This document shows, piece after piece, positions 20,475 through 45,500 of a stretch of DNA of 64,000 nucleotides. Below the pieces are notes generated by a model, which saw nothing but the letters and a program-made list of their open reading frames with translations, was not told where the DNA came from and ran no database searches. Where the stretch lies: NCBI RefSeq assembly GCF_000003815.2, contig NC_049993.1, forward strand, positions 11,535,703 to 11,599,702, given 5' to 3'. The DNA is from Branchiostoma floridae (Eukaryota; Chordata; Leptocardii; Amphioxiformes; Branchiostomatidae). The first letter of the stretch is position 1, and each line of letters opens with the position of its first letter. The position numbers were made by a program, and so were the translations under genes.

Positions 20475-23400
20475 ATGAAGGTTTTGGTGCTTTTCGCTAC
20501 ATTCCTCAGCCTCTCGTTGGCAGAAGCGACTGTCTACGTGGATGAACGGTTTTCGGACGGTAAGATTTGGGCGATCTCGGCTGGGTGCCGGGGGGAGGGG
20601 TGGTAGGGGGAGGGTGGCGGATATGTGTAGCATTTTGTACCAAAACCTCGTGTACCTTTTTATATCGTACAGTTACTAATGTTCAATTCACAGAAGATAG
20701 CAGTCACATGTTAATCTGGAGTGCTGTGATCAAAATTTTCGTAATATACGGGTAAATACAAATTAGAATGTAACATGTTAACGTTACAGGTAAATTTGCA
20801 TCAGATTCAAAACCTGATCAGTTATATGGCAAGCCCTTTAATTCGAGCCAGAGTCACAGTTTTATGTACAAGATCACGTTTTCTAAGAAATTCTCAAGTG
20901 CTTTTTTTCTCAACTACTGATAGCTAAAGCCTTGTGCAAATTTCCAACATGATCTGCTCAGTGTTTGGAAGAAATCCTCAGTTTGCAATTGGTTATCAGT
21001 TTTGCGATCATTGATTGGTTCTGGGATTTGTAATGGTAACAGAGCAGAGTGTGTGTTTTAGAATTACTCTCAAGACTCTTATAAGACCTGTACAAAAAGG
21101 AGGGTCAAATTCCAGAGGCTTGACCTGAACTACTCAGTACTCAGTGGAAAATTTGTCTGCTTGGGCAGAGCACTTCCTTTTATATGCAAATTACTTTCCC
21201 AATCCTCTATAAGCCTATGCATTGTTCTCAAAATCTGCATAATTTGTTATCGCTATAATATTGCGAATTGTTGATAGATTAATTTGTGATATAATAAGTA
21301 AAGAAGCCATAGAACATCTGTGGTAGCAAAACTATAGTACTTCTACACGTATAGAACTAGCCTCGGATATAAAGTATTTGCTAAAATGTTGAGGAGTAAG
21401 AGCTTGTGAAAATGGAACAGTGCAAAACTGCAATGGCAGGTGTTGCTGTGATAGCTTTCCCATGGGAATAACTGGCTTCTGCATGTTTAATTTTGTGAAA
21501 TAACAGATGTCAGCTTCTGTGTTGACTTACAAATTTAAGTTTTGTTTGGTTAATGTTATCAGGTATTAATAAAGTTAATTGGTTACTGGGACAAACTGAA
21601 AAAGGTGGGCGTGTCAGCGGAAACATGTTTCACTACAAAGTAGAATATTGAATGGTATACTGTAAATGCAGAAATGTTCGCGGTGGATTAATTTTCGCGG
21701 TTTTTGCGGCGGCCGCTTCACCGCAAATTTAAAACCACCGCGAACATTTTTCCATAACAGTAAGAGATTACAGTGCATGGCGCTACCGCGAAATTAAAAC
21801 CACCGCAAAAAGTCCATTTTCCCGCTACCGCGAAATTAACTCCCCGCGAACTTAAATACATTTACAGTAATCATTTATGCAATTCAACTATGCTTTTATT
21901 AATTCATAAACAGAATGTTTGAAGATCAATTCTTCAGAATGTTACTTAGGTTGAGTTTATGAAAAGTAACTAGTCTATAAGTCACATGTTGAATTTCAAA
22001 ACTCAAATCAGTATTGATAGCTAGTGTCATATGCTGAAAATTACATTGAAAATAACATGAAGATCAGTCAAAGCCATTGACTCATTTAAAAAAAAATTCT
22101 TGTAGAGATGTTCTTTTGTAGTAAATATTGTTGCTGGTGCTCAATCGATCACTCATCATGCTTGTGTTGTCTTGATTTAATAACATAACGGCATAATTGA
22201 TCTGACCTGCCCCCACCCACTTCATGAATGGATATGTCCTTGTTATTATCACTTCATCAATCCAACATGTAGGTTATAACCTTGTCTTCATGTGACATCA
22301 ACTCACAAACCAGGACAGTCTATTGTGTTAGCAACCAATTATTTCAAACTTTAGAAGGACAGTGAAGTTATTAGTGAAAATTAGTGACGGCTAAGCCTGA
22401 AGTTTTGGAAAATGAATTGTTAAGTACCACATTTGTTGTAGATATACTCACATAATTCCCTGTGGACCATACCAAGAGGTTTGCAATAGTATAGTCGCAA
22501 AATTCATACATGACAAGAAGTATACAATACATTTTGTAAATGACTTCTTAAACCAACAATTAATTGCAGAGAGAGGCAAAAGAACCGAAGCTTTCTCGTC
22601 ATTGGATAGGATATATTTTGCTAAGCTTTGTTGTAGAATTCATTTCCTTAGAGGTTCATTTATTAGTATACTGAAGTTACTTCAGGTTGTTTGTTGTCCG
22701 CCCTGTTACAGAGGCATGGAAGGACAGATGGGTAGAGTCTAAGGCAAAGGGATCTGATGCTGGACCCTGGAAATGGTCTGCTGGCAAGTTCTACGGTGAT
22801 GCAGACCTGGACAAAGGTATGGACAAACATCCTCAGACTGGACATAGTGTGGATGAAATGAACTATGTACAAATGTATATTTGAAGCTATCTGCAATAAT
22901 GATTGTTGTTTTTGGCAATGCCTGATGGGTGGAGCCCGTTACAAGTTTCCTTCATTTTCTATTGGTATGTTGTTAATTTTTTTTATACTGGGTTCAGAGC
23001 AGGGCTATCCCCAGGACCCATCCTTCTGTCCAAAAATCAGAGCTTCATGACCCCCGAAACACAATGAAGATGTATTCTTAAAAGCTTATAACAACAGATT
23101 TAACAACAAAAATCAACAATATTGGCTCTCAAACAATGAGTGCAATGGAAAGAAACTCAAAGTAGGACAAAGCCCTGAGCCAGAGACAAAATGTGGCACA
23201 GTAAGAAGTAAAATACATGTAGATTTGTTGCTGAGCTGGTTTTGATTTTATCCTTGTCAGGTATCCAGACTGGACAGGATGCGAGATTCTACCACCTGAC
23301 CCACAAGATGGAGGAGTCCTTCAGCAACGAGGGGAAAACGTTAGTCCTCCAGTTCACGGTCAAGCACGAGCAGAAGATCGACTGTGGCGGCGGCTACATC

Positions 23401-26400
23401 AAGCTGCTGCCTTCAGACTTCGACCAGAAGAAGTTTGATGGAGACTCTAAATACCACATCATGTTCGGTAAGCCTGTTGTTTTCAGTTCTATACAACAGA
23501 TTCAGTCATCCAGAAATCATTTTATCTGATTTTACTATTTCTAACAGCAGTTTCATTGCACCTTGTTATCAGCAATTATGTCCTTTTGGCTTGTAGTCAT
23601 AAATTGGCTGAAATTTGATACAAATATTGTTTGATAATATGATAATAGATTACTTTGGTAATAGCTTAGAATGAATTTTCTTGACAGCAGTTTCAAGCTT
23701 TTTATTAGGCTGGAATGAAATTTTATCTTTTAGTAATAGTATGTTGTAATGTGAATGTTATGTTAAGTGTATGATTTCCTTGTGCCATATATGTTGTGCA
23801 ATGTAAGTGCAAGTGCAATGCAGACTCACCACTAGTTTTACGTAGTGTTCCTCATGAACTTGTGTCTGTCATTCTTATTCAGCTTTTGCTCTCTGCACCC
23901 TTGGCGACATCTCTGCCTCTCTTCTAACTAAGTCATGTGGTAGCCACACAGTAGCTTGTGATGTCTTTTGGTGTACTAAACAAGTCGGTCTTGCTTAGAA
24001 CCATTTCTCATGAGATGTAGCTTGGCAAAGCTTCACTGATTACTACTATTACATTGAGGTATGCATCAGAAAAAGTAGTGGTCACAAATGTGATGATATG
24101 TATTCAAGACTCAAACAAGAGGATAGTATGGCATTTTTTTTTGTATATGTTTCTGTACTGTCAAGATGGGAATTTTTAAGCAGAATTTTTCAGGGATTAA
24201 GGCTTGTAGTGATGCTTTTTAGCAGAATTTTTCTGGGAAGAAATTGTTCAATTCTTCTTACATTCACATAAAGTTACTGCTCTCTATTCCTTGAAGAAGG
24301 GCAGTTTCAGAACTCAACCCAGCTATTGGGTCATTCAATCCCATCTGTGACACTGTCACTGGAGAAAACACATACTGTACTTCCAACCCAGCTGTCTTCC
24401 ACCTCTAAACTCTGTCTGTCCACACCTATCCAGGACCTGACATCTGTGGATATGATAAAAAGAAGGTCCACGTAATTTTCAACTACAAGGGCAGCAACGT
24501 TCTCATTAACAAGGACATTAAGTGCAAGGTGAGGCTGCAATGCACACACGTGGGCACAAGGGGGCAGCCCATGACTGTTGCTGTTAGTGTTAGAGAACCA
24601 TTTGACGATTCTGAAAAAAATCATGTTGGCTCATTTAACGTTCAAAATGTACAAAAACGCAAAATTGTTCTCTACACCAACAGGTTGTGGTTGCTACTCT
24701 ACCCCCTTTACACCCCCATTTTTGTTTGTTGATGAACTGAATTCCCCCTGCAGGCCCCGACATCTGTGGTCCTGGTACAAAGAAAGTTCATGTCATCTTC
24801 AACTATAAGGATAAGAATCACCTCATCAACAAGGACATAAGATGCAAGGTTTGTATGTCCTGTTAGGACTCCATGGAGGATCCGTTCAAAGACCATACAA
24901 AAACACCTAATAGAGTATATACTGTCCAAAACTTCTTACAGTTTACTAAACTTGTGCAGTTGCTGGGGTAACTTTTGTATTGAGCATCTTTGAATCTCTC
25001 CAAATATTAAAGGAAAGTTTAACTTGAAACTTCAACAAAGGTCACTGTGATTTGCAGCGTAGAATTTATAGACTGTAAATAAATATAAACATCTTACCAT
25101 AGCAAATTTTGGTAACATTACGTTTGCAGAGTAGAATCTACAGACTGAAAGTTTGGTGAGAGTTGCTCCTGCTATACTGACATTACTCTGAGTTGGAATC
25201 ACAACAATGAACACTAGACATCCAGATGTGCAAAATGACAAGAGGGAAACCTTGGCATGCTTTCCCTAAACATTATGCCTATCTCTCCACAGGACGATGA
25301 GTTCACACATCTGTACACACTGATCGTGAAGCCCGACCAGACGTACGAGGTCAGGATCGACAACAAGAAGGTCGAGAGCGGCAGCCTGGAGGACGACTGG
25401 AACTTCCTCCCCGCCAAGAAGATCAAGGACCCCGACGCCAAGAAGCCTGACGACTGGGACGAGAAGGAGTACATCGATGATCCTGAGGACGCCAAGCCTG
25501 AGGTACGGGAGATTTGGGGATGTTCATAAAAACATGACATTTACATGTATTACTGCTTTATGATTGGACTGTTTTAACTGTGCACTCAAAACACAGTGAA
25601 AACCTTTCAGATCCTACCACAAAATGAAATCCCCGTGAATACAAATGAATTTACAGGTCAGCACATCCTCTCCTGCATTAAAAGGGATGTCCACGCTATC
25701 TACATATAGAGCTTTGGGTGGGCACATTGGATGCATGATTCTAAGTCATTATCAACAGACCAATGGTAATAAATCATATAGCTAGAAATGTTACACTACT
25801 CCAGTCACATATCAGTCACGGTTTCTTTTCCAGAGTAAGAAAAGGCACTTATGTGACACTAGAGTACAGCACTTAGCTTTGTCACATAGTAGAGTTGAAT
25901 ACTCATCAATATTTGGTAGGTTTTTAGCACCATGTTGGATAGTGTCCAACCATTTTCCCGATCTGTTTCTCTGTGTAGGACTGGGACAAGCCCGAGCACA
26001 TCCCCGACCCTGATGCCACCAAGCCTGAGGACTGGGATGATGAAATGGACGGTGAATGGGAGCCTCCCATGATCGATAACCCTGAGTACAAGGTGGGTGG
26101 CATTCTCAAACTTTCCTATGGATACAGACACCTTCTGTGCAACATATAGTTTCATAGATACTGAAAAATGTTAAGAAAAATACTCTGTGGTTGGCACAAG
26201 TGCAGTCACTGAAAAAAAGCAGACTTTGTGATGAGCTCATGTTGTTAAGTATTTAGTCCACACTCATAGAATTTTGATAGAAGCATACACAGAAACAGTA
26301 CTCTTTTGTCATAAGTGTGCTAGATATGCTCCATTTTGAAGCAAGGGGAGTATTGAGAAGGTCTTATTACTGAAAGAAAGACGGTTGAACAAGAATTTCA

Positions 26401-28064
26401 ATACAGGAGAATTAAGGAAAAAGATAAAGGTAGACTGCCCTCACTAGTTTTGTTACTGCCCCAAGTTTTGCGAACAGAATGCTCACGTCCCAGGAAGTAT
26501 ATATTAGTCTGACCAGACTGAATTTCCCCTCCACAGGGTGAGTGGAAGCCCAAACAGATCAAGAACCCCGGGTATGATGGGAAATGGATCCACCCCGAGA
26601 TTGACAACCCAGAATACACAGCAGACTCACTCATCTACAGATACGAGGACATCGGCGCGGTCGGCTTCGACTTGTGGCAGGTATGTCGTGTTGTAGTGAA
26701 ACATGCGAACAGCAGAGCTTCAGACACCAGCGACTTTTTTTGTACACAAAGGGCTGAAAAAGTGTTGACTGGTGTTGAGGCAGTTCTGTAACTTCTGGTT
26801 ATAGTTTGGGATGATATATTGCAGGTTTTTTTACTTGAAAAGTTGAATAGGAAGCAGGCTGAATAAAAATTCTGACTCGAAGCTATGTGACTCCATTGCC
26901 CACCTAAAAAAGGCTAGGGTCGGCTGGCTTTTAAATGGTCCTTTGGTAAACAGGAAACACAACANNNNNNNNNNNNNNNNNNNNNNNNNNNNNNNNNNNN
27001 NNNNNNNNNNNNNNNNNNNNNNNNNNNNNNNNNNNNNNNNNNNNNNNNNNNNNNNNNNNNNNNNTTGAAGTTTTCCTCCTCCATTCTAGGTGAAAGCAGG
27101 CACACATTTTTGACAACATCCTGGTCACAGACGATGTAGACCAAGCAGAAGAGGCGGCCAAGGAATTGTGGGAAAAAACAAAAGATGGAGAGAAGAAAAT
27201 GAAGGATCAGCAGGATGAGGAGGAGAGGCAGAAAAGAGAGGAGGAGGAAAAGGCCAGGAAAGATGGTGAGTTTTCACATTATGGTTCTCTTTTACCTGTC
27301 ATGGTGTCAGAAATATGCCAGACACAAAGCTTAAATGTAGTCATTGGAATCTATCTGCAACAGTGCCACCTGACAGAAGTGGTAAGCACTGCACAGCTTT
27401 CTGGTCTGCTGCATTAGCCATAGAATTTTCTCCTTCAGTTGCTTTTGATATTGTGTTACCTTGTAGGTAGCTGAGGAAAAGGACATTATTTGATCCCATG
27501 CCAAGTCATCCCTGTGCTGCCAGCAGTCTTTTTGAAGAGAGGCGTAGAGCCAGTGACCCTTTTATTTGTATCAGTGACACGTTGTATGAAGCATAAAACA
27601 AGCTAATACACTTTTCGAGATGACTAGGGATAACCTGATGTGTTTGGTCGAAGACTCCATCTGTAGCAAAGCCACATTGTACTGCTGCTAGCTGCCTGAA
27701 AAAGCCTCATGCTCAAATGAGGATGACTTTTTGTTACCTTTTTTTAATGAGCTCCTGTAGTAGTAGTAATTAGTTTATTCATTGATAAAACATGAATCAG
27801 ATCGGCCTTGCAGTAAAAACTGATTTACAATCAACTTCTACAGTAAAACCAATGCAACAAGTTATCATTACAATATGTACAGATAATGTTTACTTGTTAA
27901 TAACTGCTGTGTTTGTGTCCACAGAAGAAGATGAAGAAGAAGAAGAGGAGGAGGAAGATGAGGAAGAGGAGGAAGATGAGGAGGAGGCTGAGGAGGGAGA
28001 TGCTGAGGAGGAGGAAGAGGAGGAAGATGCATCAGATTCCACAGCTGAAAAGGACGAGTTGTAA
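20475..28064 (+). CDS. CALR: Calreticulin, nine coding exons with a duplicated exon 4
   Basis: Exons: 20475-20559, 22712-22816, 23261-23467, 24434-24528 or 24754-24848 (alternatives), 25293-25502, 25979-26092, 26537-26680, 27090-27265, 27925-28064. The product is about 424 residues (human 417). Order: signal peptide [19 protein letters not shown] lobe with [15 protein letters not shown] and GPDIC (disulphide and glycan-binding residues); P-domain with three type-1 repeats ([46 protein letters not shown]) and type-2 repeats ([39 protein letters not shown]); C lobe with GFDLWQ; a Glu/Asp-rich calcium-binding tail; and the ER retrieval signal KDEL. It is a lectin chaperone and calcium store of the ER lumen. 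Exon 27090-27265 has one extra T in a T-run close to an N gap, which shifts the frame as written; without it the frame runs through to KDEL, so it is probably a sequence error. Confidence 0.96.
21658..21869. mobile_element. 212-bp MITE, TACTGTAAATGC ends, copy 1
   Basis: Starts tactgtaaatgcagaaatgt and ends with the inverse (aatacatttacagta). The interior is rich in paired ttcgcggtgg/accaccgcgaac blocks. A second copy lies at 50345-50555. The element sits in CALR intron 1 and has no coding capacity. Confidence 0.85.
24434..24528 (+). CDS. CALR: CALR alternative exon 4a
   Basis: 95 nt, entered in phase 1 and left in phase 0, with acceptor CCTATCCAG and donor AAG|GTGAGG. It encodes [16 protein letters not shown] followed by [16 protein letters not shown]. 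It keeps the Cys of GPDIC that pairs with the Cys of IDCGGGY in human calreticulin, the Asp before it that contacts glycan, and the late Cys in DIKCK. It differs from exon 4b at 7 of 32 residues; the GYDK turn in place of GPGT is the most distinct change. Confidence 0.85.
24754..24848 (+). CDS. CALR: CALR alternative exon 4b
   Basis: 95 nt with the same phases as exon 4a, acceptor CCCCCTGCAG and donor AAG|GTTTGT. It encodes [16 protein letters not shown] followed by [16 protein letters not shown]. The [14 protein letters not shown] stretch is the form usual in vertebrate calreticulins, so 4b is probably the ancestral-type exon and 4a the derived one. Only 225 nt of intron separate the two. 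Confidence 0.85.
26965..27064. other. assembly gap (100 N)
   Basis: Run of exactly 100 N, the usual placeholder for unknown length. It lies in the CALR intron 25 nt before exon 27090-27265. Confidence 0.99.
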
Positions 28065-42515: not shown

Positions 42516-45500
42516 CCCAGCTGTTGGAGTGTCTGTGTGGTGTTCAGTGATGTCAGCTAGGGAGGGGGGAGGGGGGAAGGGAGAGAAGACAAAATCATTA
42601 TCAACAATGGTAGATCTTCTGTTTGGTACTTTGCTTAACCATTTACAAAATATCGCCAGAAAAGAATAGGTGTCCTTCTCAGTGTGAGTGGTTTAAAATA
42701 TACAGTCCCATGGCCTCACCTGAGGCAATTACTGTCGTATTGAGCTCACCTGAGTGGCACCGAATGGCAGCCACTCCAGACTTGCGATTTAGCCCCGCCT
42801 ATTGTAACCTCCTCACAATTCAGCCCCTGGCTGCGGGGAGGGAGTAGTCGGCCCACCCAATAACAATAACTTACATCTCGTTTTGGCCATGATGACAGCA
42901 GCTTGTACTCCTTGGAAGGGAACCCCTTGGAGTGGACGTAGTTCAGCAGGATCTCCAGCCTGGTGGATGCCAGGAACCTTCTCTGTAACATCTCTCCGTC
43001 CGGAAGCCTCACCCGGAGGTTGATGAGTTCTGTGCAGTCCTCAGGGGGTTCGTCAGGGAGGGTGTCTTCTAGCGATGCTCTCAAGGCCTGTGTAGGTTTC
43101 ACATTACGCATCAATTATCAGATAACAAAAAAAGAAGTAATATACATGTATTACATGTGGTTACATGGCTAAACTACAGATACATGTAGCATATGGGAAA
43201 ATGATTACCCAGTATTACTGGGAAAAATCTATTAGTTTACAAGACAGCAGAGGCTGCAAACTTACCATTGCACTGCCCTCTCTCTCTAACTCCCCGCTTG
43301 AACCATTGTTGCATTTAGATGAAATTTTTCAGTGCAGCAGATATAAAACCAGGTAGATAAATATCAAAGAAGGTTTGACTTGAGAATGTCCCACTGACCT
43401 CTCTCTCCTCCTTGGCTTCCCGAGCTTCCCTCTGTGCCCTCTCCTGCTCCTCTTTCTCCTCCTGTTCTTTCCGCCTCTTCTCCTCCTCCTGGTACAGATG
43501 GGGAAACAGATGGGTTTGAAAAAAGCGATATCAATCCAGTAAACTCACCGAACAGCCACTCTTACTGTGGTATGACCAGTGATAAGGACGAGGGCAAATA
43601 CTAACAAACAAAATGCTACAAGGAAATAAGAGTACTGGTAAATCAAATATTACATCATTATTTCTTTTTGAAAAATGTCTTCAACAAGAATAGCTTCTTT
43701 AGAAATTGATAGAGGAATGTAGTGAATGATAAAACTCAAACCAGCACAAAATCATTGCACTGTCATCTCATTATCAATCGAAATGATACTTTCTATGAAG
43801 AATGCTGTAAATACTTGAATGTTCTCTAATGAAAATGGCACTTGTTGCTGTGAAACATTAGATAAAATCACACCACACAACAATACACAAACGTGTCTGG
43901 AATATAATAGTGCTCTAACTTGTACAAGTCACCCATAGCTTACAGTATTCACAACAGTTTGACTTTCACAACAACATTGCACAAGACCTTGTACCTTAGC
44001 TCTATCAGCTGCCAGTGAAACCTGATATGCCTCATCCTGTTCTCTCTTCATCCTTTCTCGTTCTTCTCTCTCTGCCTGAGGGAACGAATGACACTTTCTC
44101 GCAAAAACAGACGAGCCAAACAAATGACCAGTTGTACATATCTAAATCAATGTTCTGCTAATGGCTAATAGAAAGGGCTTTGTTCATTTCTAACTTATCG
44201 GTGTATGTACCAAACATGAGATATGAAAAAACAGCACAACAATATCTGCATTGCAGTCAAGAGAAAAATACAACATTATACGTAAAATAACCTATTAACA
44301 CTTATAATGTGCTTTTACATCCACTGTGAAAGGGAATAAGAACAGAAAGCCTATCACATACTTCTTCCTGCATCTCCACCCTCTGGTTTTCTGTGAACAC
44401 GTCGGTAGCGTTGATCAACGTGCTCATGAGCTCATCTACTGTGTTGTTACCTGTGGACGGAAATCAGAGGAGCTTCACATACACAAAGCATCTGGATTAA
44501 TATACAGATACCAAACCCATAATGAATGATAACTACCGTACGGTTTGTGCAATTGTGGGCATATTGACTTTTACCATTTATAATAGAACAAACTGCCATA
44601 ACATTGCCTTTTTCCTCTTACTATTTAAAAAAAAAACACTTGTAAAAGTTGGATCATATCAACGTCATTGGTAGTTTTTTTTAAGTTTGGACATGCTCAC
44701 TTGAAAAATCTGACTTCCTTTTATTGTTAGGAAGGGCTCTTTACATCTGTTTCCACATTCAACTCAGGTGAAAACAAGAACCTTCAGTTCATGAGCCTTC
44801 AGTTAGGGATGTTTTCTACGATGGGACATAAACCAAAGGTTCCATGTTATGTTGTAAGAAGGAGGCAACACATCAAGCACCATACAGATCTCACCACACT
44901 TAACGGATCAAACCTCACCGAGCTTATACTTTCTGTAGTTACCTGGTGTGTTACATGGCTACACCTAAGGGCTTAGGTCCTAATTGGAAAAAGGGGCCCT
45001 GCAGGACAGTTCACGGGCTGTTTTGGGGCACTGTTGGGCATGACCCCTACGTGACCCTGTGAAACACGTTGCAGCTCCAAGGGTATCGGTCATCAGGTTG
45101 AATTAAAATGAACCTGGGACCCGGTAACAAATGACCATGACCTTGGGAACACTGAGGGGTACCACGTGTCCAGTTGTCCACCAGACTGGCACTACATCCA
45201 TGATGGGCACAGGTGCAAAGTTAAGGTTTACAAACAACCAACAACAAACAAACAACATGAAGTGTCTCACCATGCACCACCTTGAGGACCTCGCTGGCCC
45301 CTCGGTTCCTCATGACCAGCATCAGCAGCGGGTACTCGTCAGCCTTGTAGTTCCGTACTGTCTGCGCAGCCAAACTGCCGTACTGACGAGAGATGTGGCC
45401 TACAAACCTGACAAAACAAATGGAACATGTCACACGAATATGTTATCTACTGTAAATTTTAAAATATTTTAATTTTACACTGACCTCCCTGGCTCAAAAT

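Follow-up and report, generated by a model that had tools for sequence, protein, structure and literature searches.

The analyzed window, the whole stretch of 64 kb considered here, harbors a calreticulin gene on the plus strand, the coding part of which extends from 20475 to 28064 and comprises nine exons with exon 4 being present twice. The coding part of exon 1 (20475..20559) carries the signal peptide and the start of the N lobe and was defined by reconstruction and by tblastn of the joined protein. It is followed by exon 2 (22712..22816), recognized by GT-AG boundaries and an open frame, and by exon 3 (23261..23467), which was reconstructed, detected by tblastn and ends with the bases ATG TTC G. 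Downstream of the two exon 4 copies, the reconstruction on the same strand yielded exon 5 (25293..25502), exon 6 with the P domain (25979..26092), exon 7 (26537..26680), exon 8 (27090..27265, also detected by tblastn and containing one surplus base), and exon 9 (27925..28064), the 140 nt of which encode the acidic tail, the KDEL motif, and the stop. The 320 residues encoded by exons 1-7 matched PDB chain 8tzo_C (Calreticulin), which we take to be human calreticulin, with an E value of 3.2e-153. The top protein match was CALR of Branchiostoma lanceolatum (P0001), identical at 303 of 320 positions with exon 4b and at 296 of 320 with exon 4a. The protein of the gene contains Cys105-Cys137, Tyr109, Lys111, Asp135, and Asp317 as well as the P domain and the acidic tail with KDEL, and the six named residues are unchanged compared with B. 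lanceolatum CALR, the protein on which alone the Pfam PF00262 check was made.

The full reading frame is not intact in this assembly, as the surplus base in exon 8, located at about 27105 and ~40 bases past a 100-base run of N (26965-27064), breaks the downstream frame of either isoform. A tblastn search with B. lanceolatum CALR matched the shifted frame from 27094 on, and the surplus base is most likely an assembly error. Within intron 1, at about 21660-21870, we noticed by eye a stretch resembling an inverted repeat with abundant CGCGAA/TTCGCGG, which might be a small mobile element. Elsewhere in the window, two open frames on the minus strand contain a trypsin-like peptidase domain (1-873, PF13365, E 1.1e-14) and a UBX domain (42749-43114, PF00789, E 1.1e-11).

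The two copies of exon 4 are adjacent and internal. Exon 4a (24434..24528, plus strand) was defined by splice sites, frame, substitution counts, and a scan of the window, exon 4b (24754..24848, plus strand) by splice sites, frame, and its match to B. lanceolatum CALR, and the 225-nt intron between them (24529..24753, plus strand) by donor and acceptor scoring. Both copies are 95 nt long (3n+2), continue a Gly codon from its second base and finish at a codon end, so that their phases are equal. The acceptors (4a ...tatccag|, 4b ...ccctgcag|) and the donors (4a AAG|gtgagg, 4b AAG|gtttgt) form GT-AG pairs in both cases. The original prediction of two 95-nt exons, 225 nt apart and equipped with good splice sites and open frames, was therefore confirmed in coordinates, splice sites, and frames. 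At the nucleotide level, 70 of 95 bases are identical; 24 of 31 whole codons specify the same residue, and a recount including the split Gly returned the predicted 25 of 32 residues.

The reading frames restrict the possible combinations of the two copies. Joining 4a to 4b leads into a TAA at codon 29 of 4b, which precedes the later exon junctions, whereas skipping of both copies results in a stop one residue past MFG; this bears out the claim that only the inclusion of one or the other copy is productive. Retention of the middle intron introduces stops, too. An ungapped scan of both strands of the window for further copies of 4a returned next-best matches of 49/95 on the minus and 42/95 on the plus strand (mean 24.4, sd 4.9). 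The same kind of window scan revealed no comparable second copy of any of the other eight exons, the best match of the low-complexity exon 9 being exon 9 itself, shifted by nine bases.

Comparison of 4a with 4b revealed differences at 14.0 of 16.8 synonymous sites (pS 0.83) and at 10.0 of 76.2 non-synonymous sites (pN 0.13). The 95% lower bound of pS corresponds to a dS of about 1.05, a value that is imprecise owing to the shortness of exon 4 (31 codons). Random placement of 24 changes produced 16 residue differences on average and a stop codon in 12,119 of 20,000 draws, while seven or fewer residue differences were obtained in none of the 20,000. We furthermore simulated neutral evolution of one copy, assuming the divergence to be split equally between 4a and 4b and counting as the observed pattern any draw with no stop and at most seven residue changes. 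This pattern appeared in 0 of 20,000 draws for a neutral period of 0.5 changes per site (~half of the minimum divergence), in 42 for 0.3, and in 890 for 0.2. The intron flanks of the copies showed an identity of 22/100 upstream and 26/100 downstream, i.e., the level of chance. The substitution pattern, the neutral simulations, and the flanks at chance level jointly argue for an old tandem duplication of exon 4, both copies of which have been under constraint at the protein level for most of the time since. Three runs of N in the window and the frameshift in exon 8 might raise the suspicion of an assembly artefact or of collapsed alleles, but such an origin is extremely improbable: 25 of the 95 bases distinguish 4a from 4b, there is no N between 20475 and 26964, and with flanking introns at chance identity neither an allele nor an assembly error accounts for the pair.

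Based on these data, we propose that 4a and 4b are mutually exclusive exons originating from an old tandem duplication within an otherwise ordinary animal calreticulin gene, and assign a probability of about 0.74 to this reading. Each pre-mRNA would keep one copy, giving rise either to the 4b form or to the 4a form. Both copies would be spliced in living animals with the choice between them being regulated, and the frame rule in combination with nonsense-mediated decay would clear products of double inclusion. A different role is conceivable for the latter event, namely that the pair mainly sets the dose: double inclusion would cause the early stop and the destruction of the transcript, and its share would fix the calreticulin output. 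The position of the TAA in 4b ahead of the later junctions fits this idea, and the 225-nt intron shows no feature that would prevent it from being spliced. Dose control, however, needs no conserved 4a protein, yet 4a appears protein-constrained, and we regard it as improbable that the pair serves mainly this purpose. Such an effect could still add to mutually exclusive use rather than replace it.

The retrieved proteins were examined for the presence of the 4a form. The 4a segment was found in none of 303 proteins (best 120 of 7994 matches, best 120 of 473, and 67 fragment matches), and a search of proteins with a 60-residue fragment spanning exons 3-4a-5 gave GYDK in 0 of its 67 matches. B. 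lanceolatum CALR, the only entry with a Branchiostoma name among the retrieved proteins, is of the 4b type; it represents a 7-member 90% cluster, within which a full-length 4a isoform would fall. These observations are in line with a vestigial 4a, silent or nearly so after a recent loss of its use, while 4b makes all calreticulin. We consider this unlikely, since 4a is free of stops, a neutral past of at least 0.3 changes per site is unlikely according to the above simulations, and the donor of 4a reached the highest score of the nine donors scored (7.13, using generic base frequencies), so its splice site has not decayed. The lowest score (1.38) belongs to 4b; hence, in this window, the copy matching the B. 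lanceolatum protein has the weaker donor of the two. Under mutually exclusive use, the weak donor of 4b may be what is expected if the choice is regulated and not left to site strength.

Several ways of enforcing such a choice were considered. Steric exclusion was rejected, as the intron measures 225 nt and its branch point is expected within the last ~68 nt, far from the 4a donor; the AG-free stretch ahead of 4b comprises 68 nt. Competing RNA pairs between the introns were likewise rejected at this sensitivity, with 10, 17, and 47 of 60 shuffles reaching the observed energy (each value being based on 60 draws in which two-base blocks were permuted in just one of the partners). A search for regulator motifs, using patterns of known splicing factors, gave no striking result. 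The middle intron contains 5 Nova-like YCAT motifs (2.2 expected) and 4b contains 3 (0.7 expected), counts that are uncorrected for many tests. Among human clusters of mutually exclusive exons, steric cases contribute 9% and U12 cases 0.79%, and 60% of the clusters contain exons of a length not divisible by three, according to the human atlas (PMC5740500). Considering that steric, pairing, and motif signals are missing here and that human steric and U12 cases are few, the frame rule together with regulators would be the likely means of enforcing the 4a/4b choice.

The proteins specified by the two copies differ in seven residues (139, 140, 141, 152, 153, 155, and 162), which are located in the loop 139-141, in the hairpin region 152-155, and at position 162; the numbering coincides with that of the human protein (PMC3057994) for Tyr109, Lys111, Asp135, Cys137, Asp317, and Trp319. 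Exon 4b encodes a GPGT loop and a KDKNH hairpin, whereas 4a encodes GYDK, KGSNV, and Lys162. The predicted contrasts in the turn and in the second loop were thus found as described, with position 162 differing in addition. On protein level, the 4b segment is identical to the same segment of B. lanceolatum CALR. The predicted fold of this 4b-type protein (mean pLDDT 82.4, pTM 0.68) shows strands at 130-137, 143-150, and 153-156, thereby placing 139-141 in a loop, 152 in a turn, and 153 as well as 155 in the short strand following the turn.

Of the lectin- and peptide-site residues described for the human crystal structure (PMC3057994), exon 4 encodes Pro134, Asp135, Cys137, His145, and Ile147. 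All five are the same in 4a and 4b, with a chance of 0.25 that all of them are kept. The original prediction was correct in stating that the Asp and Cys of GPDIC (Asp135 and Cys137) are kept in both copies. Its mutually exclusive reading is well supported by the anatomy and the selection pattern, whereas the suggested tuning of the glycan or peptide surface is not supported, the exon-4-coded residues of both sites being identical in the two copies. A different surface came into view through a contact between calreticulin molecules in the crystal, which PMC3057994 calls “omnipresent” in the crystal forms so far. It involves the pairs Asp71-Arg162, Arg73-Glu167, and Val50-Pro139, and the side chains of Lys142 and Asp165 reach the main chain of residues 69 and 71 (PMC3057994). 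Exon 4a changes Pro139 to Tyr and Arg162 to Lys, i.e., two of the three exon-4-coded contact (zipper) positions (139, 142, and 162). As chance yields this overlap with a probability of 0.12, it is a lead and not a finding. With the odds against it, we tentatively suggest that the switch might spare glycan binding and alter the edge of the N lobe that contacts other calreticulins or partners. A conserved switch which alters two loop regions and leaves the glycan site intact would provide a natural pair for asking what role this surface plays, e.g., in self-association as in the crystals.

To place both loop types among other animals, we compared 236 calreticulins, representing the best 120 of 7994 and the best 120 of 473 matches with four in common; the set is biased to relatives of the query and is no census. 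Within these listed matches, the four residues after Cys137 read GPGT in 105, GYST in 94, GYDK in 21, and otherwise in 16 proteins. The 4a loop GYDK is also present in calreticulin of the bdelloid rotifer Rotaria sordida, and is hence a natural loop, while Ser at position 153, as in the 4a hairpin, was found in 0 of the 236, so that this hairpin is without a match in the set. Bdelloid calreticulins (P0122, P0153) vary at this site, with GYDK after Cys137 in Rotaria sordida and GHDK in Adineta. GYST occurred in all nine proteins named calreticulin 3a or 3b among the listed matches, and GPGT in the calreticulins of Polypterus and Lepisosteus and in one of Amia; some fish proteins with the plain name calreticulin carry GYST as well, e.g., from Amia (P0069) and Bagarius (P0072). 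Judged from their translations, 4a and 4b correspond to a GY-type and a GP-type of one loop, both of them natural. With the GY-type in fish calreticulin 3a/3b and the GP-type in other fish calreticulins, a single amphioxus gene may cover the two types that are divided between genes in fish, and the exon pair could link splice choice in amphioxus to the gene split in vertebrates.

The inheritance of the loop was followed on a FastTree phylogeny computed with exon 4 left out. After 22 of the 236 proteins had been dropped (20 shorter than 370 aa and two chimeric-looking models, P0002 and P0003), 159 of the 214 remaining were sampled, comprising entries 1-120, every protein with a loop that is neither GPGT nor GYST, and one in six of the others. 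Contrasting GPGT with all other loops required at least seven changes, compared with a minimum of 43 and a mean of 52.7 in 200 label shuffles; loop type is mostly inherited and changed several times. This count is rough, as branch supports range from 18 to 99 with weak branches among them and the tree implausibly makes a sponge the neighbor of Elysia. An ancestral chordate or even older gene that already switched between GP and GY versions of exon 4 would, if true, explain the repeated changes across animals: amphioxus would have kept the switch, vertebrates would have split it into CALR and CALR3, and other lineages would have lost either exon. The change count neither proves nor excludes this scenario, which we rate as quite improbable; parallel change is simpler than common ancestry for the GY- and GP-types in amphioxus and fish. 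Regarding the exon borders, the exon-4 segment terminates with CKV in 20 of the 67 short frames matching the exon 3-4a-5 fragment, and in 44 the residue customarily found ahead of GPDIC (F, Y, or L) is missing, as would be seen if the frame began at an exon boundary. Within these 67 frames, the exon-4 borders seem to be common to many animals, with exon 4 continuing into exon 5 elsewhere.

No calreticulin splice switch was recognizable by title or start of the abstract among the papers listed from open-licence PMC text (20 of 38 in one search), which agrees with the statement of the original prediction that none is known; two isoforms of calreticulin may already be present in automatic annotations of the genome. 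PDB chain 8tzo_C displays one exon 4 form only, that of the GPGT type. The human calreticulin globular domain (3POS/3POW, described in PMC3057994) belongs to the same protein family as the product of the gene in the window. A parallel within the family is provided by fish, where calreticulin and calreticulin 3a/3b show the same kind of loop difference as 4b and 4a. These paralogues, however, are separate genes and not splice forms, and have GYST where 4a has GYDK. With regard to the exon architecture, the human mutually exclusive exons derived from tandem duplication are likewise neighboring internal exons of the same length and phase and of similar sequence, as set out in the human atlas (PMC5740500), in the main text of which the words calreticulin and CALR are absent. 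Frame incompatibility upon joint inclusion is a further feature that, in this atlas, human exons share with the calreticulin pair described here from genomic sequence. Within amphioxus, the IIIb and IIIc exons of Fgfr are mutually exclusive by RT-PCR, as reported in PMC5703972. Like 4a and 4b, they form a chordate pair from one tandem duplication and thus set a precedent in amphioxus, with most vertebrate Fgfr genes also keeping both exons (PMC5703972). Overall, 4a and 4b probably represent a conserved mutually exclusive pair, and thereby a new case of a known phenomenon in an unexpected gene.
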